Positions 10,396 through 32,237 of a stretch of 64,000 nucleotides of DNA are shown piece after piece (within the stretch, counting starts at the first letter, position 1; each line of letters opens with the position of its first letter). The DNA is taken from the NCBI RefSeq assembly GCF_000025285.1, contig NC_013741.1:372001-436000 (forward strand), in the 5' to 3' direction. Under the pieces are notes generated by a model that worked only from the letters and a program-made list of their open reading frames with translations, had not been told where the DNA came from and ran no database searches. A program made the translations under genes and the position numbers. This stretch comes from Archaeoglobus profundus DSM 5631. GTDB lineage: Archaea > Halobacteriota > Archaeoglobi > Archaeoglobales > Archaeoglobaceae.

Positions 10396-10404
10396 CTTAA
10401 ATAC
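10396..10404 (+). promoter_or_regulatory. TATA box of tRNA-Cys
   Basis: CTCTTAAATACTG sits 24-32 bases before the first base of the tRNA, the usual distance for an archaeal TATA box. The region upstream to 10262 is AT-rich, and I see nothing else in it. Confidence 0.6.
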
Positions 10405-10801
10405 TGCCTAAGGGAATAAAGAAATAGGCCAGGGTGGCAGAGGGGCCATGCGGGGGACTGCAGATCCCCTGACCCCGGTTCAAATCCGGGCCCTGGCTTA
10501 AATTTAAATTCTCTAAAAGTTCTCTTAATTTCTCATTGATAAATGAGCTAATATCAACTTCCAGTTCTTTAGCTTTCTGTAATAGATTTTTATCAACTCC
10601 AACAAATTCTATAGAGTTGTCCAACTTGTTGTCCAACTCACTTTCATCTACTGAAATCAAGAATTTATTTTTATCAATTTCATAAATCTTAGCTCCTTTT
10701 CCAATTATTTCTTTGTATTCTAGAGGAAATCTAACAATAGGATATTCAAATCCTTCTTTTGCTTTCTTCTTTCCAATAATAGATCTACCAACTAATTTCA
10801 T
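10397..10801 (-). CDS. Integrase N-terminal fragment, int(N), split at att
   Basis: Residues 1-100 (MKLVGRSIIGKKKAKEGFEY onward) belong to the element. Residues 101-115 (LSQGPDLNRGQGICS) are read from the att sequence, antisense to the tRNA, and the last 19 residues are host read-through. The same 15 att residues occur in frame in the C fragment at the other end. Excision would give 115 + 284 = 399 residues. The N part resembles the short SpoVT/AbrB-like or arm-binding region that precedes some archaeal integrases, but I cannot name it surely. It overlaps the upstream wHTH gene by 4 bases, so the integrase promoter probably lies before that gene. Confidence 0.85.
   Translation of the reverse strand: MKLVGRSIIGKKKAKEGFEYPIVRFPLEYKEIIGKGAKIYEIDKNKFLISVDESELDNKLDNSIEFVGVDKNLLQKAKELEVDISSFINEKLRELLENLNLSQGPDLNRGQGICSPPHGPSATLAYFFIPLGSI
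10428..10498 (+). tRNA. tRNA-Cys (GCA)
   Basis: GCCAGGG at the 5' end pairs with CCCTGGC at the 3' end (7-bp acceptor). The anticodon stem GGGGA/TCCCC carries the loop CTGCAGA, so the anticodon is GCA. The T arm is CCCGG-TTCAAAT-CCGGG, and position 73 is T, as in Cys tRNAs. CCA is not encoded. The 3' part from the anticodon loop onward doubles as the attachment site of the integrated element and remains intact after integration. Confidence 0.96.
10457..10502 (+). repeat. attL: 46-bp direct repeat (tRNA-Cys side)
   Basis: The stretch from ACTGCAGATCCCC to GGCTTAAA is identical to 20127-20172. Bases outside differ on both sides (G versus C before, T versus A after). It spans the anticodon loop to just past the tRNA 3' end. 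Confidence 0.95.
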
Positions 10802-11814
10802 TTCTCGATCACCTCTTCTTTAGCTTCTTTAATCAAGCTCTCAATTTCAGATTCAATCTTAGACTTGAAGAACTTTAATCTCTCGAGAGAAGAGTAAGGA
10901 TCGAGTGCTATTGCAACATCCTCTGTTAATTTCCCAACTTCTTCGGCTTGATGAATAAATTCAAATAGATCTTCAAGAAATTCACCAAACCCTTTAGCAA
11001 ACCCTTCAGGATTCTCTTCTATCGTTCTTACAAGCTCTTCGAGCTTCTTTTTATGTTCCTCTTCAGTATACTTACTTCTAAGAGCTATCTTTTTTCTTCT
11101 TTCTTCTTGTTCGTGTTTGAAAAGTTTGTATAGTTCCTTGTTTACTTGCAATAAATTCTTCTCAAAAATCGTCTCAAATTTTTCAATCGTCTCCAATGGA
11201 TCCTTTTTAAACTCTTCAATGCATTCCTGCAAAGTCTTTAAATACGCTCTGTAAAAATCGTAAAGGGGTTCAATCCTTCTAATTTTATTAATAAAATCAC
11301 TTTCTATTTCTTTTTCGACTTCAAAAGTCTCGAAAATTAAATCTTTCTTGAAATCTTCTGATAATTCTGAGCTTATAATCTCTTTTCTCAATAAGTCAAG
11401 CTTATGTGCAATGTAACTCTTCCCGAACTCTATTTCATTCAGTATTATTAATCCTTCAAAAGGTTCCAAGGATTCTAATTCGCTCTTTAATCTAGAAACA
11501 CGATTCTCTAAGAACATATCAAATGCTTTTTTGAATGCTCTTATCTCTGACAATTTACTAGCTATAAATTTACCTGCATCCTTTAGCTTTATTGTTTTCT
11601 TTTTTCCTTTTGTCCAACCTTCCTCTTTAATCACTATTTTTCCTTTTTCCTTTAACTTTCTAATAACATTTGAAAACGTCAAGTTTGAAACAGCGTTTTC
11701 CCCTTCTCTTTCTTTATAAAGTCTATACAGCTCGTTAAACCCTAATCCTTCTGGGTACTTGCTTAAGATTTCAAGCACTCTTTCTTCAGCTATTTCTGAC
11801 CTCCTTTTTATCAT
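10798..11814 (-). CDS. Winged-helix plus coiled-coil protein of the element
   Basis: Residues 1-85 look like a winged helix (ERVLEILSKYPEGLGFNEL, then SNVIRKLKEKGKIVIKEE). The remaining 250 residues are almost wholly charged helices with heptad-like spacing. No enzyme motif is visible. It is the first gene of the pair with int(N) and is divergent from the 76-residue wHTH gene across a 16-bp inverted repeat. A role as DNA-binding regulator or organiser of integration is inferred. I do not recognise a named family. Confidence 0.7.
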   Translation of the reverse strand: MIKRRSEIAEERVLEILSKYPEGLGFNELYRLYKEREGENAVSNLTFSNVIRKLKEKGKIVIKEEGWTKGKKKTIKLKDAGKFIASKLSEIRAFKKAFDMFLENRVSRLKSELESLEPFEGLIILNEIEFGKSYIAHKLDLLRKEIISSELSEDFKKDLIFETFEVEKEIESDFINKIRRIEPLYDFYRAYLKTLQECIEEFKKDPLETIEKFETIFEKNLLQVNKELYKLFKHEQEERRKKIALRSKYTEEEHKKKLEELVRTIEENPEGFAKGFGEFLEDLFEFIHQAEEVGKLTEDVAIALDPYSSLERLKFFKSKIESEIESLIKEAKEEVIEK

Positions 11815-11828
11815 TTAAACCACCTAAC

Positions 11829-11864
11829 TAAGTAACTAACTAATTAACATTAGTTAGTTACTTA
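11829..11864. promoter_or_regulatory. 16-bp perfect inverted repeat, divergent operator
   Basis: The left arm TAAGTAACTAACTAAT (11829-11844), a 4-base spacer TAAC and the right arm ATTAGTTAGTTACTTA (11849-11864) are exact reverse complements. It lies between the starts of two divergent DNA-binding protein genes, 15 bases from one and 33-39 from the other. A further CTAACTA copy lies just left of it. This is a strong candidate operator for one or both neighbours. Confidence 0.75.
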
Positions 11865-11902
11865 AGACTTTTGCAAGAAAGTCCAATTGAGGTGATGTGA
11901 AA

Positions 11903-12127
11903 GTGGCTGTAAGAACTCGTGAAATTGAAGAGATTAGAAAAAATGTGAGAGAGTTTGCAAAAAAACAGACACAACCCTTTTCAGTAAACGATGTGGCTAG
12001 AGAATTCGGTATCTCATGGACGACAGCAAGAGCAATTCTTCTTGAATTAGCTCTTGAGGGAGAAGTCGAAGTTATGAAAACTAGCAAATCCTATATCTTT
12101 ATTCCGAAAAGGGGTGATAAGAGATGA
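11903..12127 (+). CDS. Small winged-helix DNA-binding protein
   Basis: About 74 residues. FSVNDVAREFGISWTTARAI is a clear helix-turn-helix, and the following EGEVEVMKTSKSYIFIP forms the wing. GTG at 11903 is preferred because GAGGTGAT lies six bases before it; GTG at 11897 would touch the ribosome site. It overlaps the next gene by the ATGA string at 12124. It is likely the regulator of this rightward operon and of the divergent int-side operon through the inverted repeat. Confidence 0.78.
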   Translation: MAVRTREIEEIRKNVREFAKKQTQPFSVNDVAREFGISWTTARAILLELALEGEVEVMKTSKSYIFIPKRGDKR

Positions 12128-12798
12128 AAAAGATAAAGATTGAAAATGTAATGATTGAACTTGAAGAACCTCTAAGATTCTTCAAATTCGAAGCGGATAA
12201 GATATATGAGGTCGAAATAGACTTGCAAAGATTTCCTATAATTAAGAAATTCAGAAGTAGAAATGGAGGAGAATATCCTGCATGCATTTACAATCTTAGA
12301 ATACTCAGAGAAAATGGAAAAGAGATTAATTCCGAATGGATGCAAAGGAGAGTAAGTGTAGGGGATTACAGAGAGGACGAAAATGGCATAAGAGTAAAGC
12401 CAAGAATGTTCTCCGAGTTTTGGCAATTAGCACAGATATATGATAAGTTTAGGGCAGGAATTCACAAATGCATCGTAAAAACTAAAGGAGGAAATAAAGG
12501 ACAAGTTCTTACGAGAATCATTCATAGCAAGGACTGCGATTGCTTGAAAAGCAGAGAGGGAGAAAAAAGAAGAGAAGAAAGAGATTCTGATATACAAGTT
12601 TATCATCCTCAGGAAATCGCAGAAAGACTAAAGGAGGATATAAAAGAGGAAAAAGCCATCACCGTTAAAGAAGTAATGGATCGATACAATACAAACGAGG
12701 AGACCGCAAGAAAAGCTTTAGATGTACTGACAGAGGAAGGATTAGCCGTAAAGATCAGAGAGGACAAATACTTCATCTCCCCAAAATCAGAGCTATGA
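12124..12798 (+). CDS. Element protein with C-terminal winged helix; N-domain possibly OB-like
   Basis: 224 residues. Residues 1-135 are beta-rich with YEVEIDLQRFPIIKKF, FWQLAQIYDKF and GQVLTRI, which could be an OB-like nucleic-acid-binding fold (weak inference). A polar linker of about 25 residues follows. Residues 160-220 (ITVKEVMDRYNTNEETARKA, then EGLAVKIREDKYFI) form a winged helix. It lies between a small wHTH gene (ATGA overlap) and the ATPase gene, so it may deliver DNA to the ATPase. Confidence 0.6.
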   Translation: MKKIKIENVMIELEEPLRFFKFEADKIYEVEIDLQRFPIIKKFRSRNGGEYPACIYNLRILRENGKEINSEWMQRRVSVGDYREDENGIRVKPRMFSEFWQLAQIYDKFRAGIHKCIVKTKGGNKGQVLTRIIHSKDCDCLKSREGEKRREERDSDIQVYHPQEIAERLKEDIKEEKAITVKEVMDRYNTNEETARKALDVLTEEGLAVKIREDKYFISPKSEL

Positions 12799-12854
12799 GG
12801 AGATATGGCTTTAAAGGCTTTAACACTTCTCTTTCAATTTTTTGAGGTGGTTTC

Positions 12855-13826
12855 ATGGCAATAGGCTTGAAACCTCTTGAGGATATCGTGGAACTTGCAA
12901 TAATTTCAGCATGGATAAAGCCTAAGCCTGTAAGCTTAGGAATCTTTGCCCCTCCAGAATACGGTAAAACTGAAGCTCTACTTCAATTTGCAGGATGTAA
13001 GGGAGTAAAAATTATTTCAGATGTAACATCTTTCGGTTTAAGTAGGTTTATACTTCCAGAAATCTCTTCGAAAAGAGTTAAATGCTTAATATTTCCTGAT
13101 TTATTAAAAATTTTAAATAGAAGTTGGAAGGTAACAAATGAAATACTATCTCTTCTCAACGTGATAATAGAGGAAGGAGTTAGTGCTGTATACACTTTCA
13201 ACATTCAATTCGATGCTGAAATTATAGGAGACAGAGTAAGATGTGGTGTCATTCTAGCATGTCCCGAAGAAGTTATCAAGGAGAGGGAGAACAGACTTAA
13301 AAAATTTGGATTTTGGAGCAGGATTCTGCCTTTCTACTTCGAGTATACTAAAGAAGATCTGTTAAGAATACACGAGGAGATTAAAGAGGAGAGATCTCCA
13401 TTCATGAAGAAAAATCTAAACATTCCTGATGATGAAATTGAAATTAAGCTTCCTAAAGAGGAAGCTGATAAATTAGATCCAATTGTATTTGCATTTAAAG
13501 ATTCTATAGGATCTACTACTGGATTTAGGTTAAGATGGAATTTACAACAATTAGCTAAAGCTAATGCTTGGATTAATGATAGAGATATAGTAATAGAAGA
13601 AGACATTAGGAAAATTATCTCGTTTACTCCTTTCTTCTTTAATCCTATCAAGGGAGATGAATGTATTTATCGAATTCTTAGATTACTTCCTGCTAAATCA
13701 GAGGAAATCGTTGAAGAATTATCAGATCTTTATTCGAGGAGAACTATTTATGATCGACTAAAGAGGCTTAAGGAGAGTGGAATAATAATTGAATCTGAAA
13801 GAGGATGGAATTTAAGATTAAAATAA
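12855..13826 (+). CDS. AAA+-like ATPase with C-terminal winged helix
   Basis: 323 residues. APPEYGKTEALLQF (about residues 32-45) is a Walker A box, and RVKCLIFPDLLKIL is a Walker B-like strand, though with D rather than DE. VRCGVILACPEE looks like the sensor-1 strand. Residues 210-260 resemble an AAA+ lid (TTGFRLRWNLQQLAKANAWI). The end (EEIVEELSDLYSRRTIYDRL) is a winged helix. A GAGGTGG site precedes the ATG. It resembles replication or remodelling ATPases of archaeal plasmids; function is inferred. The adjacent 365-bp non-coding region would be its natural target. Confidence 0.65.
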   Translation: MAIGLKPLEDIVELAIISAWIKPKPVSLGIFAPPEYGKTEALLQFAGCKGVKIISDVTSFGLSRFILPEISSKRVKCLIFPDLLKILNRSWKVTNEILSLLNVIIEEGVSAVYTFNIQFDAEIIGDRVRCGVILACPEEVIKERENRLKKFGFWSRILPFYFEYTKEDLLRIHEEIKEERSPFMKKNLNIPDDEIEIKLPKEEADKLDPIVFAFKDSIGSTTGFRLRWNLQQLAKANAWINDRDIVIEEDIRKIISFTPFFFNPIKGDECIYRILRLLPAKSEEIVEELSDLYSRRTIYDRLKRLKESGIIIESERGWNLRLK

Positions 13827-14190
13827 TTTTATTTTTATAAATACCTCAATGTGCAAGAAACTTGTTACTTCAAGTATTCACGACTCCTGCACACATTATT
13901 GATATGCTATGGCGTATGTCAAAAATACTGATTCTACAACTACGGAGTAACTAAGATACATGGGAATGAGAATGAAACTGAAACGACATTATCATGTATC
14001 GAAGATGTCTAATTTCAATGTGTGTTTAAAGCTATTCTTAACTTCTTTTCAAGAATATTATGAGAATATAGGAGGAAACAGTGTCTATAACTTCTATTAG
14101 CATTCAGTCTACACGATACATCTAATCAGAAATTTTATCTGATAATGTTAATAAAACTATATCTTCAACTCGGTTAATTAACTAAGTTAA
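13827..14190. other. 365-bp non-coding region rich in inverted repeats; candidate replication origin
   Basis: No credible ORF. The region contains GATACATG...CATGTATC arms (13955-13968 and 13987-14000, 12 of 14 positions paired), ACTTG...CAAGT inside an AATGTGCA...TGCACACATT pair near 13850-13900, ATCAGA-7-TCTGAT near 14125-14145, and GTTAATTAAC plus AGTTAACT near 14174-14192. GATACATCTAAT at 14115 recurs at 14637 next to the HTH-coiled-coil gene. It lies between the ATPase gene and that gene, convergent ends on both sides. Such structure fits an origin or partition site (inference). Confidence 0.45.
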
Positions 14191-14622
14191 CTATAACTTT
14201 TTAACAGCTTCATGAATTTTATTAGCTTTAACTATTAAGTCTCTAAAATTATCATCTGATAAAGCTAAGTAATGGATGTACGGATTTGACAGGATTGATT
14301 GGAAAGCTTTATCGAACAGTTTAAGAGTTCCTATAGCTTCTTTCTTAAGCTTAGCAACTTCTACTATTTCATCTATTAGCTTCTCTTTCTCTTTTATTTC
14401 CTTCTCTAATTTAGCTTTATATTCTTCCAATTCATTAATCTTATTCTCTAATTCTTTCAGTTTCCTCTTATTAACTTCTAAATCAACCATTATTTCTAAA
14501 TCTTTAGCAATTTGATTAATCTGAGATATTGATAGCTTTAGCTTCTTAGCTATTTGTCTGTAAGAGTATCCTTGCCTTAACATTTCTACACATTTTTCAT
14601 ATTTCTCTTTATGAACTTTCAT
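14191..14622 (-). CDS. HTH plus coiled-coil protein
   Basis: About 143 residues from MKVHKEKYEKC. Residues 10-45 (GYSYRQIAKKLKLSISQINQ) are a homeodomain-like HTH of the resolvase/Hin type. Residues 50-95 are a strong coiled coil of K/E heptads. The C-terminal 45 residues are a separate helical unit. GATTACATCT and GATACATCT direct repeats overlap its start, and GATACATCTAAT recurs beyond its 3' end, so it may bind these and control itself. A small partition adaptor or regulator is inferred. Start ATG 14622 is chosen over 14643, which lies in the repeats. Confidence 0.65.
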   Translation of the reverse strand: MKVHKEKYEKCVEMLRQGYSYRQIAKKLKLSISQINQIAKDLEIMVDLEVNKRKLKELENKINELEEYKAKLEKEIKEKEKLIDEIVEVAKLKKEAIGTLKLFDKAFQSILSNPYIHYLALSDDNFRDLIVKANKIHEAVKKL

Positions 14623-14624
14623 AA

Positions 14625-14648
14625 GATTACATCTATGATACATCTAAT
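14625..14648. promoter_or_regulatory. Tandem GAT(T)ACATCTA repeats at gene start
   Basis: GATTACATCTAT at 14625 and GATACATCTAAT at 14637 are 12 bases apart, about one helical turn. They sit immediately before the HTH-coiled-coil gene. The second copy is identical over 12 bases to 14115-14126. They are likely operator or iteron sites. Confidence 0.5.
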
Positions 14649-14737
14649 AAAATTTGCTAATAGCTGAGAAATTTAGCTATAAACGATATAGAAATGAGTT
14701 AAAATTTTTAATATTAGAGTTGAAGAATAATATCATG

Positions 14738-14763
14738 AGATACAAGTATGGAAAATTGTATCT
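14738..14763. repeat. 8-bp inverted repeat AGATACAA/TTGTATCT
   Basis: AGATACAA, ten bases, then TTGTATCT, lying between the 3' end of the zinc-ribbon gene and the promoter side of the HTH-coiled-coil gene. It could be a terminator hairpin or another regulatory site; the shared GATACA core hints at the latter. Confidence 0.35.
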
Positions 14764-15287
14764 TAGAACGGTATCTCTCCACAGTTAGAACAAACCCATT
14801 TCCCCATTGATTTATCATATCTCAGCTTGGAATTTTCCAAGCAATTAGGACATTGAAAACTTAATTCAGCAAATCCAAATCCTGTTCTTACCATTCTTGA
14901 AGCTTTATTTAATCTATCTTCAATTTCTTCAATTGCTTTAAACTTACAAAGAATATCATAAAGCAATTCCTTCAATCCCTCCCTCTTATTAAGCTTCCAT
15001 TCAACGTATTTCCATAATACGTCGTAAATTTCAATTTCATCAAGATTATGTCTCTCCATTACCTTCGTAATCGAGTATTCTTTCTCTATATCCTCAAAGA
15101 TTGGAAGATACTTAAACTCCTCTTTCAACCTCTTACAAAATTCATTGAATCTCTTAGGAAGAGTGTAAGATTTAACTCTGCCATTTATCCTCTTCTGTAA
15201 TTTATACTTCTGATTAGTTTTATCATAACTCAATGTCCATCCTTGATTAATGTATTCGATTATCTTCTCTTCTGTCCATTCCATCAT
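14763..15287 (-). CDS. Zinc-ribbon protein of the element
   Basis: 174 residues. The C-terminus has CPNCLENSKLRYDKS and VCSNCGEIPF, two CxxC pairs 18-20 residues apart, a classic zinc ribbon. The N-terminal 35 residues (NQGWTLSYDKTNQKYKLQKR) read like a small beta unit, and the middle is helical. No catalytic motif is seen. DNA or RNA binding is likely; the role is unknown. A divergent AT-rich gap with an AAGTTGC/GCAACTT inverted repeat near 15345-15373 precedes it. Confidence 0.65.
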   Translation of the reverse strand: MMEWTEEKIIEYINQGWTLSYDKTNQKYKLQKRINGRVKSYTLPKRFNEFCKRLKEEFKYLPIFEDIEKEYSITKVMERHNLDEIEIYDVLWKYVEWKLNKREGLKELLYDILCKFKAIEEIEDRLNKASRMVRTGFGFAELSFQCPNCLENSKLRYDKSMGKWVCSNCGEIPF

Positions 15288-15346
15288 TGTTAGTTCAACT
15301 TAGAAATTTAAAAGTATAATGTAGAGAGAGGATATATTCCCTATAA

Positions 15347-15373
15347 GTTGCTTGATTTATCTATGCAACTTAA
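15347..15373. promoter_or_regulatory. 7-bp inverted repeat in divergent promoter
   Basis: AAGTTGC and GCAACTT with a 13-base spacer lie between the divergent zinc-ribbon and 130-residue genes. A TATA-like ATATATTTAAACTC follows near 15437, close to the rightward gene start. Operator function is plausible but untested. Confidence 0.4.
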
Positions 15374-15455
15374 TAAGTTTCATTAACTGTTGCATTTGCA
15401 TATCTGTATCTCGTATCTTGGAAATGTTTATAACGATATATTTAAACTCATAATC

Positions 15456-15848
15456 ATGACTGTTCCATATTGGTTCAATGAAAAATTAATTGATACAGAT
15501 GCTAAAGCTTTTGGTGTTTATTTAGCTTTATTAAGATCCCGATTTACCCACGGTTGGTGGGATAAGGAAGTAAGACCAAGCCCACCGATAGTAGATGATG
15601 TTAGACTGGAAATTCAAAAGTTTTTAACAGGAAGGGATATACTCGAAGCTTCTGAAGCAGTAAGAGATTTTATGAAGCTATTAAATGAATACGAATATGA
15701 AAAGTTATTTTTAGATAAAAGTTTCTTAGATGAAATAGAAATAAAGTATTACGAAAAATTCAGAAGAGCTTGCTACAGATACTTTAAGAGAGAGGCTATT
15801 AACGAAGAAATTAGGGATTATATATTAGGTTATTTCTTAAAGATGTAA
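15456..15848 (+). CDS. Hypothetical element protein, 130 residues
   Basis: Starts MTVPYWFNEKLIDTDAKAFG after a TATA-like sequence, probably nearly leaderless. It is mainly helical, with HGWWDKEVRPSPP as the only loop of note. No membrane segment, no metal motif and no family that I recognise. It is followed after 26 bases by the frameshifted nuclease gene in the same direction, so both may be one transcription unit. The frame extends upstream to 15390, but without a ribosome site. Confidence 0.55.
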   Translation: MTVPYWFNEKLIDTDAKAFGVYLALLRSRFTHGWWDKEVRPSPPIVDDVRLEIQKFLTGRDILEASEAVRDFMKLLNEYEYEKLFLDKSFLDEIEIKYYEKFRRACYRYFKREAINEEIRDYILGYFLKM

Positions 15849-15874
15849 AAGCTGGTGTTTATAAGAGAATATTA

Positions 15875-16704
15875 ATGACCAAAATTGGTAGTGTACACAT
15901 TTATTCAATAGCAAGTAAGGCAAGTAAGTATTTAGCAATTAGTAAAGACTTTGAAAGATACTGTACAAACTTACAATGTAAGAAAGATAAAATTGATGAA
16001 ATCGCTAAAGCCTTAATAGAGTCGGGAATTGTAGTTTTTGGAATTAGTGGTGCAGACATAATCCAAGCACCATTTCTTAAAGATGAGTTTATAGAGAGAT
16101 TAGCTCCACCTGAAGAGACAGAAGAAGTTGAAGGAGAAGAAAAGATTGAAAGGGAAGAAAAAGAGAAATTAGGTAAGGAATATGAGGGAAAGGCTCTGAC
16201 AAGAGAAATATTAGAGAGTATAGTTAGGGATGTATTAGAGGATTTAGGGTTTAAAGTTGAGACTAATAAGAAATTAGATGCAAGGGGAGGAGGGAAGATA
16301 GAAGTAGATGTATGGGGAATGAAATTAATTAAGAATGCTGGATTTTATGTCTATGCATCATGTAAGAATTGGGACAGAAAATAGATAGATCAACAATAGA
16401 TGAAGAATTTGGAAGAACTCAGCACTTAATTCAAATTCCTCATCTTAAAATATTCGTAGCTAAAAGATTAACAGATCCAGCAAGACAAACTGCTTTAGCA
16501 GATGGATTTATCGTAATTGAATTAGGTGAAAAAGCTTCTACAAATAATGCAAGAGAAATCTATGAAATAATCTATAAACACCTAAGAGAACTATTCATAG
16601 GAATTGCTCCTCCAGAACTACAAAAATTCGCTAAAGAAACTAGAGAAATTTCTGAAAGATTAAAAACCTTAGCAGAGGAAATTGAAAGGATATCTAGTCT
16701 TTAA
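15875..16704 (+). pseudogene. PD-(D/E)XK-like restriction endonuclease family gene with a -1 frameshift
   Basis: Frame one ends at 16384 just after ASCKNWDRK. The continuation IDRSTIDEEFGRTQHLIQIP lies one base back, entered at the A run around 16378-16381. Joined, the product is about 276 residues: an N-terminal unknown domain, an acidic linker (residues 85-110), then a nuclease-like domain with KIEVDVWG and SCKNWDRKIDRS, resembling archaeal restriction-endonuclease-like proteins. The usual E of the ECK box reads S here. One missing A would explain it: a mutation, an assembly error or programmed slippage. The C-terminal LFIGIAPPELQKFA and coiled tail match the family. Confidence 0.68.
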
Positions 16705-16728
16705 GAAACAATTTCTAGCATGGATTTT

Positions 16729-16986
16729 TTAACAAATCTTTTTTATAAAGTTAGCAATTTCCTCTCCAATCATAGTTCTCTTGTAAACTCTTCCAACTTT
16801 TTCATTTGGTGTTAAACACTCAATTAAACCCTCTTTTTCAAGTTCCTTTAAAGCCCTACTTACGTGAGGTAAGCTTAAATTAAGCTCCTTAGCAATTTGA
16901 GCAGGAGTTTTTGGATTAGATAAACATAATAGAACAGCTTTCCGGTTTTTAGCTCTAATGACAAAGCTGTATTTTGACCAATCCAT
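16729..16986 (-). CDS. ArsR-like winged-helix regulator
   Basis: 85 residues from MDWSKYSFVIRAKNRKAVLL. KTPAQIAKELNLSLPHVSRA is the helix-turn-helix and KEGLIECLTPNEKVGRVYKR the wing, typical of small archaeal ArsR-type repressors. No metal-binding Cys pair is present. It is divergent from the 490-residue gene, with TTACCAATCA repeats in between, so it probably represses both. The longer frame to 17016 would run into those repeats. Confidence 0.8.
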   Translation of the reverse strand: MDWSKYSFVIRAKNRKAVLLCLSNPKTPAQIAKELNLSLPHVSRALKELEKEGLIECLTPNEKVGRVYKRTMIGEEIANFIKKIC

Positions 16987-17020
16987 GTTATTTAGATTCG
17001 AAAAATTAATAAACAATCTA

Positions 17021-17041
17021 TTACCAATCAGTTACCAATCA
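17021..17041. promoter_or_regulatory. Tandem TTACCAATCA operator repeats
   Basis: Two identical 10-mers at 17021-17030 and 17032-17041 are spaced 11 bases, one helical turn, in the 72-base gap between the ArsR-like gene and the divergent 490-residue gene. They lie just before the GAGGTG ribosome site of the latter, placed to block its transcription or initiation. Confidence 0.65.
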
Positions 17042-17058
17042 ATTATAGAGGTGTTACC

Positions 17059-18531
17059 ATGGCCAATATGCATTCAGAAGTTCAGGATTATCTGAAAGCT
17101 CTTCTTGAATATTACGATTTTACAGTGGAGAAAGAACGTTATATTTCGCCTAGTGATAGAATAGATTTGTATGGATATAGCAAATCACACAACAAAACTA
17201 TTGGAATTGAGATAACTTTTACAAGTGATGTTAGGAGAGATGCTGAAAAATTAGCTAAATCTGGATTTGATTTAATTTACATAGTCGTCGATAATCCAGC
17301 ATATGAAGGCAAAATTGAATATCGAGGGAGGGTAATCCCGATCGTCCATTACAACTCTTTTGAGAATGAGCTAAGGAGATCTTTAAACATCTCTCTGACA
17401 TTTCCTATGTTTGGTTCCTTTGAAGAATGGATCAAAGGTAGGAGAATCGAACAAATTCCAGTAGCAGAGGGAAAATTAGATAAGTTCATACAAACGCTAA
17501 GATACTCAGGATTGGATGAGTTTATTGAAGATGTTATAAATCTTCTTGCAATGTTATATATTACTAGAGAGATTCCTTCTATGTATAGAGATGCTATAAC
17601 TTACGATTTAATATGTTCTGGTGTAAAGACTAAAAGACCTCAGTACAGAACCATAATTGAACCTAAGATTTTAAATATACTGAAAAACTTTGATTTAGTA
17701 CTTGAAGAAGCTAGAGGTAGTGGAGAACTAAGAAAGTATTTCATACATTTAACTAATAAAGGAGATGAAATCGGCAGAGAAATAATTGCTAATAGAATTA
17801 GCACGAATTCTAGAGAACTTGATAGTATTATCAAAGAGTTCGGTAAAATGGCCCCAATAATAGCAGTTGGAACTGTGGAGAGGTATGTAAGAGAAAGAAT
17901 TATGAGATTTGAATTATCAGAGAAAGACATCTTTGATCGCTTGCTTTTGCATGTTGAAAGTAGAGTTACGGATTATGTAATCCACAGTAAACTTGTAACA
18001 ATGGGAAAAGAAGTTGAACTCAGATATGGAAGAAAGCGAAAATTACATCCACTTCTATCCCTAATCTGTTATTTTATCACTTACTATAATTACAGCAAGA
18101 GCAGAGACTTCTTCAACCGATTAGAAGAACTCGGTTTAGCTTATGAAGTTCCCATTTACGATTCTCGTGGTCGATTTATCCATGATGAAATTAGAAGTTC
18201 AATAGAAGTCTCGGAATACATATTGAGTAGAATTCCTTTGCCTGAGAGTGAACTTATATTTGAATTTGGATCGCTAACGACAATTCTTGCAATTAGCAGA
18301 ATTAGAGATCCGAAAATTGCAAGAGAAAGACTAGAGGAATATATAAAGTTCTATGAAATTCCTCTCGATAGCATAAAAAGAGTTCTGGATGAGTTTAATA
18401 GATTTGGACTTGCATCGAAATTTATCGAAGTTTCAGATTCTGGACCATTTTTGATTTTTGATGAGAAGAAATTCGAAGAAATTATAAAAAGAAAATTAAT
18501 TGATACAGCTTTAAGATTTCTTAAATTATAA
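17059..18531 (+). CDS. Nuclease-like N-domain plus helical/wHTH region, 490 residues, unknown
   Basis: Residues 1-100 have the order of a PD-(D/E)XK fold: HSEVQDYLKALLEYYDFTVE (early acidic helix), SDRIDLYGYS (D), then IGIEITFTSD (E-x-T instead of E-x-K) and FDLIYIVVDNP. The middle and C-terminal parts are helical. YFIHLTNKGDEIGREI and similar strings look like winged-helix wings. GAGGTG precedes the ATG. It is paired with a divergent ArsR-like regulator. It may be a DNA-targeting effector, defence protein or sensor; the altered third residue could mean no cleavage. No family name is certain. Confidence 0.6.
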   Translation: MANMHSEVQDYLKALLEYYDFTVEKERYISPSDRIDLYGYSKSHNKTIGIEITFTSDVRRDAEKLAKSGFDLIYIVVDNPAYEGKIEYRGRVIPIVHYNSFENELRRSLNISLTFPMFGSFEEWIKGRRIEQIPVAEGKLDKFIQTLRYSGLDEFIEDVINLLAMLYITREIPSMYRDAITYDLICSGVKTKRPQYRTIIEPKILNILKNFDLVLEEARGSGELRKYFIHLTNKGDEIGREIIANRISTNSRELDSIIKEFGKMAPIIAVGTVERYVRERIMRFELSEKDIFDRLLLHVESRVTDYVIHSKLVTMGKEVELRYGRKRKLHPLLSLICYFITYYNYSKSRDFFNRLEELGLAYEVPIYDSRGRFIHDEIRSSIEVSEYILSRIPLPESELIFEFGSLTTILAISRIRDPKIARERLEEYIKFYEIPLDSIKRVLDEFNRFGLASKFIEVSDSGPFLIFDEKKFEEIIKRKLIDTALRFLKL

Positions 18532-18572
18532 TAGTTCAATTGGCTTATTTACGATCCTAAAATACTATGTCA

Positions 18573-19214
18573 TTAACATGGTGGTTGTGGTAATTTTTTA
18601 GGGAATATACCTCGTGGTATTAGTTCTTTCTTAATGATTTCAGCGAGTTGATCTATGTAAACTTCTCTACAATCACATCTCGGAAAAGGTAAACATCTAA
18701 TGTCATTTAAGTTAAAGTTAGGTTGAGTTTTCGACTTCTTTAACTTTTTTAATGCTTCCTTGGCTGATAATATTGCCCAACAGCATACTCTTTCATGTAT
18801 AACGATTATAAAGTAAGGATTTAATTGAGATATTTGATTTGCTAAGTTAGGAATTAATTTTCCCTTCTCTTGTCTTCCTACCCATCCACAAGGACTTTTT
18901 GCTTTTGTATCAGGTTTATTGTATACGTCGATCAGATAACAACCTAAGTATTTAAAGCAATCTAAGAAATTAGTGATTGATTTACTATAAGCTTTTTCAA
19001 ACGCTTCTTTAGTTGCAAAATATAGGTTTGAGTTTGCACAATAAAAGAATGTAGCACCAGCAGGGGATTCTCCAATGAAAAGAACTTTTATTTTTATATT
19101 TTGCTTCATTGGATTGTAATTCTCTCTTATTTCTCTGTAATTCTCATCTATTCGATCTTTTTCACTTTCTTCTATCCTTAAATAAAGTCTTTTCACTACA
19201 TTAAGTTTAATCAT
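18573..19214 (-). CDS. Uracil-DNA-glycosylase-like protein
   Basis: 213 residues. KVLFIGESPAGATFFYC resembles motif 1 of the UDG superfamily (GExPG-like, here GESPA). A central FIIVIHERVCCWAIL strand and the later CLPFPRCDCREVYID loop occupy the places of the later UDG motifs. It is rich in Cys (over ten), including CDC. It is small for a family 4 enzyme and the catalytic identity is unsure. Position beside int(C) makes it cargo. Base-excision or a defence-linked UDG-fold role are both possible. Confidence 0.6.
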   Translation of the reverse strand: MIKLNVVKRLYLRIEESEKDRIDENYREIRENYNPMKQNIKIKVLFIGESPAGATFFYCANSNLYFATKEAFEKAYSKSITNFLDCFKYLGCYLIDVYNKPDTKAKSPCGWVGRQEKGKLIPNLANQISQLNPYFIIVIHERVCCWAILSAKEALKKLKKSKTQPNFNLNDIRCLPFPRCDCREVYIDQLAEIIKKELIPRGIFPKKLPQPPC

Positions 19215-19271: not shown

Positions 19272-20249
19272 TTATTTAAATAAATTTAGTAACTTACTAA
19301 TTATTCTAGAATACCATTCATCAGCTTGTTTTACCTTTGCAAGATAATGCATAGAACCAACTGTAATTGAAGCTCTTCCTTGTATAAAATCAGCTACTGA
19401 TTCTGGAACTCCATTTAAGATAAGGAAGTTGTAGTTCCATTTTCTTAGATATTTAGCTGGTAATCCTTTCTTTGCAAAATATTGTGAGACTGCATCTTCA
19501 TCTAATTCCATTCTTCTAAGCTCATTAGAGAATTCTAGAGGGAGATAAGCATAATAGGATTTCTTACTTCCTCTATCAAGTCCTAATGGATATTTAGCTA
19601 TTTTATCATTAGTTATTAGCTTATTTGAGTCAAATGTTCTCAGTAGGTGTAGTGCTTCTCTTAATCTTATTCCTGAGAAAGCTAAGAGTTTAAAGAGAAT
19701 TTTATATCTTTCATCTTTGAATTTTCTAAATACTTCAATGACTTTAGAATCTTCGGGAACGTATTCATCTTGGTTGGTCTTTGGAATCTTTACAATTTTA
19801 CGATATTTCATTAAGCTTTCTTCGTTCATTAAGTCGAAAGCTTCATAGAAATTCAATAGATTTCTTAATCCAACACAAAAATGTCGTTTCCCTTTCTCGA
19901 CTTTCCTAATTATTTCAAACAGTTCTTTCGGATTTCTGATTCTATCTGGAAGATACTTATCGAGATAATAGATTTGCTTATCTGCATGTTCTTTAGAACA
20001 TTTTTCATATAACCAATTGATAAAATCTTTCCTAACTTCATCATATCTTATCTCATCTATATTGCTTTCTTTTGAGCTACATCCTATTGAAATTACTCTA
20101 TTCTTAATTTTCTCTTCTCTTAACCCACTGCAGATCCCCTGACCCCGGTTCAAATCCGGGCCCTGGCTTAAAATATGATGCACATCCCAGCCTCCAATTC
20201 TTCTTAACATGGTGCCTACATTAACATTAGCATCTCTAACCTCCTTCAA
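19272..20249 (-). CDS. Integrase C-terminal catalytic fragment, int(C)
   Basis: Residues 1-26 are host-derived, 27-41 are the att residues, and 42-325 are the catalytic part of an archaeal tyrosine integrase. FSGIRLREALHLL holds Arg195, GSKKSYYAYLP the Lys, KYLRKW the KxxR box (266-269) in place of HxxR, GRAS Arg292, and SMHYL Tyr302. This is the SSV-type set. With int(N) it makes a 399-residue enzyme only in the circular form. The start codon now present lies in host DNA, so any product in the integrated state would have a foreign N-terminus. Confidence 0.88.
   Translation of the reverse strand: MKEVRDANVNVGTMLRRIGGWDVHHILSQGPDLNRGQGICSGLREEKIKNRVISIGCSSKESNIDEIRYDEVRKDFINWLYEKCSKEHADKQIYYLDKYLPDRIRNPKELFEIIRKVEKGKRHFCVGLRNLLNFYEAFDLMNEESLMKYRKIVKIPKTNQDEYVPEDSKVIEVFRKFKDERYKILFKLLAFSGIRLREALHLLRTFDSNKLITNDKIAKYPLGLDRGSKKSYYAYLPLEFSNELRRMELDEDAVSQYFAKKGLPAKYLRKWNYNFLILNGVPESVADFIQGRASITVGSMHYLAKVKQADEWYSRIISKLLNLFK
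20127..20172 (+). repeat. attR: 46-bp direct repeat (tRNA-Cys 3' half)
   Basis: Identical to 10457-10502. It contains the anticodon loop, T arm and acceptor 3' strand, but the preceding sequence (TCTTAACCC) cannot form the tRNA 5' half. Confidence 0.95.
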
Positions 20250-30887: not shown

Positions 30888-32235
30888 CAATTTTCGTAGA
30901 TATTGATAGACATTAGTGAATTTTAACGCCGTATTTTTCGAGCCAGAGGATTAAAGCTTCCTCTACAGCTTCGCTTAATGCACCCTTCTTATTTCCCTTA
31001 ATTTCTACGACTTTCATTCTAAACAACTTTCCAATATCTTCTCTCACAGTAACGTTGAATCTCATAACATTCATAAATTCTATTACACAGGAAAGCTTAT
31101 AAACTTTTACGTTTAAGTGCTATTGTGGAATTGATAAAAGCTTACAGTATCCCAATAAAAGCACCGAAAGACCTGATGGAAGAATTCTTCAAGCTGAGAA
31201 AAACAGTGTTAGATGAAGTATTCAAGCACATAAAGTATTCCAAAAGCGGAAAAGCTCATTTAAAGTTCAACAAAAATGATAGAAAGGAATTGAGAGATAA
31301 ACTATTAAGAAACTGGAGATTTGCAAAACATTACGTAGATTCAGCTATTAATTCAGTTATAGGATTAGTTAAGGGTTGGATTCAATTGTACAATCGAGGC
31401 AAAGCAAAGTCTAAACCCGAAATTACAAAAAAGACCGTTTACGTTAAAACTACCTTGTTCACAGTTAGAAACGGTAAGATTAAAATTACAATTGAGCCAA
31501 AAAAGCGTTATTTAGAGGTAGATTTAGCAAAATTCAATTATCTGCCAAAAGATTACGATTCAATTGGCGGTTTGATACTGCAAAAAGATAAACTGATTAT
31601 TACGTTCAAAAAGAGAGTCGAATTAGTAGAACCAAAAGACTACGCATCTTTCGACGTGAACTTAACAAATGTTACAGGTTTGATCAATTACAGAATTGTC
31701 AGATTCGATCTTAGAGAGCTATACCACATTCACAGAGTTTACGAGGAGAAGAGAAAGAGAATTCAAAAACTGGCTAAGACTAAACCTAAAACCGCTAAAA
31801 AACTTATGCAGAAGTATTCGAAGAGAGAAAGAAATCGTGTAAGAGATATAATGCACAAAATAACCACTACTATTGCAAGAGAATTAGTATCGATAAAGCA
31901 TGGTGCAATTTTAGAAGACTTGAAAAATATCAAGGATGGAATCCTCAACGGTAGTAAAAATCTAAATCGTAAACTCTCAAAATGGAACTGTAGAATGTTT
32001 CAATCGATGCTCGAATACAAGCTCATGTGGTTCGGTCTGCCAGTTAAATACGTTAATCCCGCTAACTCTTCCAAAACCTGTCCCGTCTGCTCTGGCAGGT
32101 TATCTGCCTATCGGGACAGGTTAATGAAATGTGATCGTTGCGGTCTCGTTCAGGATAGAGATGTTATTGCAGTCTTAAACCTTCGGATGTGGGGCTTGGG
32201 GGGTTACCCCGAAGGGGGACGAGCCCTTCAAGGGT
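30888..32235 (+). mobile_element. IS200/IS605-type element with tnpB only, about 1.35 kb
   Basis: The boundaries are deduced from the interrupted frame: removing this interval restores a continuous minus-strand reading frame, give or take a few bases. It holds tnpB and a small divergent RHH gene; there is no tnpA. The right end has the hairpins GGGGTTACCCC and CCCTT-C-AAGGG. No target duplication is seen, as expected for this family. Confidence 0.7.
30913..31065 (-). CDS. Small ribbon-helix-helix protein next to tnpB
   Basis: 50 residues: MRFNVTVREDIGKLFRMKVV, then NKKGALSEAVEEALILWLEK. The short strand followed by two helices fits the RHH fold of antitoxins and small repressors. ATG 31065 or 31074 may start it. 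It is divergent from tnpB with a 50-60 base gap, inside the element, so it is probably a regulator of tnpB or a passenger. It was too short for a usual ORF cutoff. Confidence 0.68.
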   Translation of the reverse strand: MRFNVTVREDIGKLFRMKVVEIKGNKKGALSEAVEEALILWLEKYGVKIH

Positions 32236-32237
32236 GA
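31125..32237 (+). CDS. tnpB: TnpB RNA-guided nuclease homologue (IS605 OrfB)
   Basis: 370 residues with all expected sites: RuvC-I Asp in YASFDVNLTNV, RuvC-II Glu in HGAILEDLKNIKDG, a zinc ribbon CPVC...CDRC, and RuvC-III Asp in DRDVIAVLNL. The N-terminal helical part starts from a GTG (VELIKAYSIP). No frameshift is seen, so it is probably active. TnpB proteins cut DNA using an RNA made from the element's right end. No TnpA partner lies nearby. Confidence 0.92.
   Translation: MELIKAYSIPIKAPKDLMEEFFKLRKTVLDEVFKHIKYSKSGKAHLKFNKNDRKELRDKLLRNWRFAKHYVDSAINSVIGLVKGWIQLYNRGKAKSKPEITKKTVYVKTTLFTVRNGKIKITIEPKKRYLEVDLAKFNYLPKDYDSIGGLILQKDKLIITFKKRVELVEPKDYASFDVNLTNVTGLINYRIVRFDLRELYHIHRVYEEKRKRIQKLAKTKPKTAKKLMQKYSKRERNRVRDIMHKITTTIARELVSIKHGAILEDLKNIKDGILNGSKNLNRKLSKWNCRMFQSMLEYKLMWFGLPVKYVNPANSSKTCPVCSGRLSAYRDRLMKCDRCGLVQDRDVIAVLNLRMWGLGGYPEGGRALQG
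32185..32236 (+). ncRNA. Candidate omega (guide) RNA scaffold of tnpB element 1
   Basis: The tnpB 3' end overlaps a GC-rich stretch with nested hairpins (GGGG-TTA-CCCC, then CCCTT-C-AAGGG) in an AT-rich gene. In known systems the scaffold overlaps the tnpB 3' end and the guide is the flank just past the element. Here that would begin near GATGTGTCCCAAAG. By analogy only. Confidence 0.4.

Follow-up and report, generated by a model that had tools for sequence, protein, structure and literature searches.

The window, that is, the entire stretch of 64,000 nucleotides of Archaeoglobus profundus DNA that was analysed, harbours an element of 9,670 bp (approximately 9.7 kb) integrated into the tRNA-Cys gene of strain AV18T. 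The tRNA gene, called by ARAGORN and Rfam, is located at 10427-10499, and a 46-bp repeat representing its 3' half constitutes the left attachment site on the forward strand (attL; 10457-10502), with a second, identical forward-strand copy delimiting the right end (attR; 20127-20172). The integrase is split between the two ends: the N-terminal half IntN (10397-10801, reverse strand) extends into the antisense of tRNA-Cys, the catalytic half of this SSV-type integrase, IntC (19272-20249, reverse strand), matches Phage_integr_3 with E=6.8e-63, and the att-encoded peptide SQGPDLNRGQGIC is common to both. Weak relatives of IntN are found near other integrases, and relatives of IntC occur in 35 of 55 Archaeoglobaceae genomes. 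With a GC content of 32.0% versus mostly 40-46% in the surrounding host DNA, together with the split SSV-type integrase and the 46-bp att repeats, the locus is a cryptic, mobile, SSV-type integrative element of plasmid- or satellite-like character. In a sister genome (G002, contig C38) the left host flank could be matched up to the tRNA end with no element behind it; the right flank was unmatched beyond the att repeat. A search of the element against Rfam gave no match other than the tRNA.

The element belongs to a well-known kind and carries orphan genes. As in other SSV-type archaeal elements and proviruses, a Phage_integr_3 integrase is split into IntN and IntC, the att site falls within the 3' half of the tRNA gene and the gene content is dark matter; the difference is that, in the loci and collections compared, none of its proteins has a specific relative except for the integrase and the product of a 490-aa gene. 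The genome of A. profundus has been described to consist of a chromosome of 1,560,622 bases and a plasmid of 2,801 bp (PMC3035285), and a word search of this genome paper found both 'integrase' and 'provirus' to be absent. Seven matches to the SSV-type integrase of the element are present in the A. profundus chromosome (L062-L067), because of which the organism probably contains several integrated elements. At another of these integrase loci (L063:6710-9641), a BrxL-type ATPase (E=1.5e-11) is encoded beside a 174-aa protein with an HUH-like motif recognized by eye, a different replication-like pair.

At its left end the element contains a forward-strand operon encoding, in this order, a 76-aa wHTH protein, a 224-aa wHTH protein and an ATPase. 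The first gene (11897-12127), which is absent from the account of a possible replication module given in an earlier note on this DNA, codes for a product with matches to HTH_Tnp_ISL3 (E=2.1e-5) and DUF7342 (E=9e-5), both below cut-off, and overlaps the second gene by 4 bp; the 76-aa protein is likely an autoregulator. The 224-aa protein (12124-12798) possesses a C-terminal wHTH (residues approximately 151-218) that scores above the curated cut-off for Ribosomal_S25 (31.9 bits, E=1.7e-7). Of the domain composition previously proposed for this protein, OB-like plus wHTH, only the wHTH could be retrieved, as the search for an OB domain in Pfam, PHROGs, NCBIfam and PDB sequences gave no match outside of the wHTH; equally, contig and genome searches gave no relatives other than via the wHTH. 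A special kinship of the 76-aa protein with the wHTH of the 224-aa protein was considered and rejected, with a z of 4.3 being no stronger than between the other wHTH proteins of the element. The ATPase gene (12855-13826) follows after a spacing of 56 bp, both ORFs are located on the forward strand, which confirms their earlier description as co-directional, and ribosome-binding-like sites precede the 76-aa gene and the ATPase gene.

Divergent from the operon, a 338-aa protein with an N-terminal winged helix followed by a long helical-looking region is encoded on the reverse strand (10798-11814). This protein has a match to MCM4_WHD (E=8.6e-5) below cut-off and no relatives in 55 Archaeoglobaceae genomes or in viral contigs. 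Scans of viral and genome contigs gave no matches for the 224-aa, 338-aa and 490-aa proteins and the ATPase, and for the other proteins of the element tblastn in phages and plasmids yielded a generic 95-aa wHTH only.

The third operon product is an AAA+-like ATPase of 323 aa. Its Walker A motif, IFAPPEYGKTEALL, occupies residues 30-43 (12942-12983), the lid at approximately 13518-13616 matches AAA_lid_2 with 18.5 bits (E=0.0017), below the cut-off of 22.7, and the C-terminal wHTH at approximately 13662-13820, already recognized in the earlier note, matches HTH_11 (E=3.5e-5) just under the curated cut-off. The other motif assignments were made by eye and comprise a Walker B-like LIFPD(L) (13083-13115), in which the Asp is kept and the following catalytic Glu is missing, and a putative Arg-finger FGFWSR (13305-13334). 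AlphaFold2 models of the ATPase, alone and with a two-row alignment, reached a pLDDT of 34 and 37, a poor prediction because of too few relatives. Searches with tblastn in phages and plasmids and those of viral contigs and genome contigs gave no match for the ATPase, and two matches from a scan of viral contigs with a PDLLK...EEG DNA motif were discarded, both being due to chance.

Upon HMMER searches over 393 Halobacteriota genomes, nearly all matches of the ATPase were generic wHTH regulators or unrelated proteins, and one was kept, a 408-aa ATPase (L017:869-2095) encoded on contig C2 of a genome of the same genus (G001). The two proteins are 21-24% identical over approximately 220 aligned residues, with a Smith-Waterman z of approximately 11-12, above 500 of 500 shuffles, and a z of 9.8 if the wHTH is left out, so that the 408-aa protein is a probable distant relative on sequence grounds, although borderline when counted over the whole search. 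Shared between the two are the position of Walker A, a LSLxN...EEG/ENG motif, the lid and the C-terminal region; on the other hand, the 408-aa protein has a longer N-terminus, and in place of wHTH proteins its neighbours are a UvsX-like protein and one with a SWIM zinc finger. The contig in question (66 kb; also L132, L145-L147) looks viral because of its coding capacity for PolB, the primase small subunit, a thymidylate synthase (ThyA), an anaerobic ribonucleotide reductase (NrdD), a helicase, a UDG and a UvsX-like protein, and it encodes a MoxR-like ATPase as well. In the phage collection the 408-aa ATPase had no match.

With respect to established AAA+ groups, the lid of the ATPase, like that of the 408-aa relative, resembles the lids of MoxR and BchI (Mg-chelatase), as seen not only with AAA_lid_2 but also with profile matches (E=4.6e-5 to 0.03) and the lid of PDB 2r44 (E=0.042), and the 408-aa relative shows similarity to a protein of BchI type with a z of 9.4. 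These similarities would be consistent with a MoxR-like chaperone or remodeller that has no part in replication and works on protein complexes belonging to the element or its host, with the wHTH being regulatory. The match is, however, limited to the lid, as the P-loop part has no detectable similarity to this group and the Walker B lacks the DE pair, and the C-terminal wHTH points to DNA. MoxR is usually accompanied by a vWA-domain partner, and such a partner is absent among the family matches of the element's proteins. We thus consider a chaperone or remodeller role unlikely. MoxR/BchI proteins are neither replicative proteins nor initiators, and MCM is part of the same broad AAA+ group.

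The layout of the ATPase, AAA+ followed by a lid and a C-terminal winged helix, is the layout of the MCM and Orc1/Cdc6 initiators; what sets the ATPase apart is that no profile of these families in Pfam, including the Pfam ORC C-terminal families, and NCBIfam is matched at E <= 1. Equally, like the SSV1 B251 'DnaA-like' family (arCOG07960), the protein is a P-loop ATPase that a mobile element encodes close to its SSV-type integrase, but it has no sequence similarity to B251 (z = -1.1). All seven ATPases tested from Archaeoglobaceae integrase loci belong to the B251 type (z 9 to 48), and the z of the ATPase to these seven is 0.2-2.8, which together with the z to B251 rules out an assignment to the B251 type. 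Considering all proteins of the element, Pfam, PHROGs, NCBIfam and the comparisons gave no match to Rep, prim-pol, MCM, Orc1/Cdc6 or the SSV1 'DnaA-like' protein.

Downstream of the ATPase gene, a non-coding stretch of 364 bp with 29.7% GC (13827-14190) separates the 3' ends of two convergent genes. As previously stated, this is the only long gap of the element (with a length of 365 given before), approximately three times as long as the next longest non-coding stretch (119 bp). The gap had also been described as full of inverted repeats and placed as the origin in an order of initiator, loader and origin, and this part found no support. Inverted repeats with an arm of at least 6 number seven, where shuffles gave 4.1 +- 2.0 and 25 of 200 had as many, the longest arm of 8 is equalled in 66 of 200 shuffles, and the folding z is -1.45 as DNA and -0.9 and -0.3 as RNA. 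Furthermore, a scan for an ORB-like box in the gap remained at chance level, and neither an Rfam match nor a second copy in the genome was found. A chromosomal ORB has been reported for A. profundus (PMC3035285). The gap is not a repeat-rich origin. That an origin served by the operon proteins is nevertheless situated here, for which the length of the gap, its low GC content, its position adjoining the ATPase gene and a weak palindrome at 14167-14188 with TTAACTAA-type words also found in the palindrome upstream of the operon might be considered, is very unlikely in view of the chance-level repeats and folding, the missing ORB-like box and the convergent 3' ends on both sides. The gap may have another function, for example as the template of an RNA transcribed from the TATA-like TTTTTATAAATA near 13834.

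A different picture emerges from the 82-bp intergenic region (11815-11896) from which the 338-aa wHTH gene and the operon diverge, approximately 2 kb away from the gap. CTAA repeats with a palindrome extend from 11824 to 11864, and at their core a 36-nt palindrome (11829-11864) built of CTAA units has perfect 16-bp arms (11829-11844 and 11849-11864) separated by a 4-nt loop. This palindrome, unique in the genome, is the longest inverted repeat of the element and its one DNA feature out of the ordinary, and an arm of 16 is reached in none of 60 shuffled elements (maximum 15). The folding z of the 82-bp region is -6.14; an outer stem CACCT/AGGTG of the folded region was discounted, as its two strands are nothing but the ribosome-binding sites that serve the genes on either side. 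Cumulative GC skew, which had been suggested as a check on the gap, has its minimum in the element at 11848, upstream of the operon; coding-strand GC skew is positive in all genes of the element, and the minimum is not independent evidence because it follows from the divergent gene directions. The region 11824-11864 is the best candidate for an operator or an origin.

The location of the palindrome exactly between two divergent wHTH genes, where it overlaps both promoter regions, is the usual place of a divergent-promoter operator, and the operon might accordingly be a transcriptional control module similar to a lysogeny switch. The 76-aa, 224-aa and 338-aa wHTH proteins would compete for the palindrome and thereby choose between the integrated and the active state, the ATPase would be an ATP-dependent co-regulator, and replication would be host-dependent or absent. 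Six genes of the element encode HTH or winged-helix domains, and the small proteins find their best matches mostly among transcription-regulator HTH families, which equally fits such a switch, although a dedicated AAA+ protein is unusual in switches of this kind and the element would be left without a replication protein. We regard this as a possible explanation, and because the palindrome sits at the operator position, the operon is almost as likely to act in transcription alone as to have a role in replication.

Elimination and context point to the operon as the strongest candidate for replicating and maintaining the element, and we favour, with a probability of roughly 0.4, the plausible reading that this is its function in the cryptic integrative element. 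No recognizable replication gene is present in the element, the operon combines two wHTH proteins with a P-loop protein that itself carries a wHTH, a palindrome beyond chance with iteron-like CTAA units lies beside it at the cumulative GC-skew minimum, and the one distant relative that the ATPase has comes from a virus-like contig that also encodes PolB, primase and a UvsX-like protein. A published survey reported many cryptic integrated archaeal elements without recognizable replication genes, and stated that a wHTH protein may initiate (PMC6563490). What tempers this reading is the operator-like position of the palindrome, the explanation of the skew minimum by gene direction, the Walker B without catalytic Glu, the lid of a type found in non-initiator proteins of the MoxR/BchI kind, the borderline status of the 21-24% identical relative and the fact that autonomous replication is absent in some elements. 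The earlier idea of a replication module is thus plausible with regard to the role of the genes, though not supported with regard to the gap as origin; if there is an origin, a location upstream of the operon is more likely than the gap at 13827-14190.

The anatomy is established, with the element and its ends, the operon of three genes, the P-loop and wHTH domains, the palindrome and the lack of known replication genes. For the replication and maintenance operon, we infer each protein-DNA and protein-protein step, and replication of the element as such, as follows. The integrase would first excise the element, whereupon the 76-aa and 224-aa wHTH proteins would bind the CTAA-repeat palindrome at 11824-11864. 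The 76-aa protein would repress its own operon and thereby set the copy number, and the 224-aa protein would mark the palindrome as the site of initiation. The ATPase, tethered via its own wHTH, might then spend ATP on opening of the site or on recruitment of the host MCM helicase, with subsequent copying of the element by host polymerases. A new replication system is possible in this context; a more specific proposal appears doubtful, namely a previously undescribed initiation system that has distant relatives in Archaeoglobus viruses and in which a CTAA-repeat palindrome is the target of a wHTH initiator together with an AAA+ ATPase of the MoxR group with a C-terminal wHTH. With three genes and an intergenic region of 82 bp, in a type strain whose genome is sequenced, the candidate set is small and defined. 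Should the operon initiate replication, a family of initiators or loaders would be added, and an origin for vectors used in Archaeoglobales could be obtained.

The right part of the element (14191-19214) codes for HTH/coiled-coil, zinc-ribbon and unknown proteins, a broken nuclease-like gene, a wHTH protein, the 490-aa protein and a UDG-like protein. The presence of nuclease-like genes and a UDG-like gene in this part could suggest that the operon belongs to a cargo with accessory or defence functions, but PADLOC matches of the operon proteins are at the wHTH level only and the operon is situated at the integrase end opposite to the nuclease-like genes, which makes a cargo function most improbable. 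Two ORFs of 169 and 111 aa (15875-16704) appear to be a single nuclease-like gene, judged by eye to be of the PD-(D/E)XK style, that is broken by a frame change near 16380. Apart from the integrase, only the 490-aa protein (17059-18531) of the element has specific relatives in Archaeoglobaceae, with 57% identity over residues 4-245 in G019:C30 and 19 further genomes giving weak matches, and its N-terminus is a possible PD-(D/E)XK domain (E=0.12). A 213-aa protein (18573-19214) has a weak uracil-DNA-glycosylase match (E=0.0013). Elsewhere in the window, at 31125-32237, a 370-aa TnpB-like protein of the IS200/IS605 family with a C-terminal zinc finger, identified by eye, coincides with a dip in GC content to 0.33.
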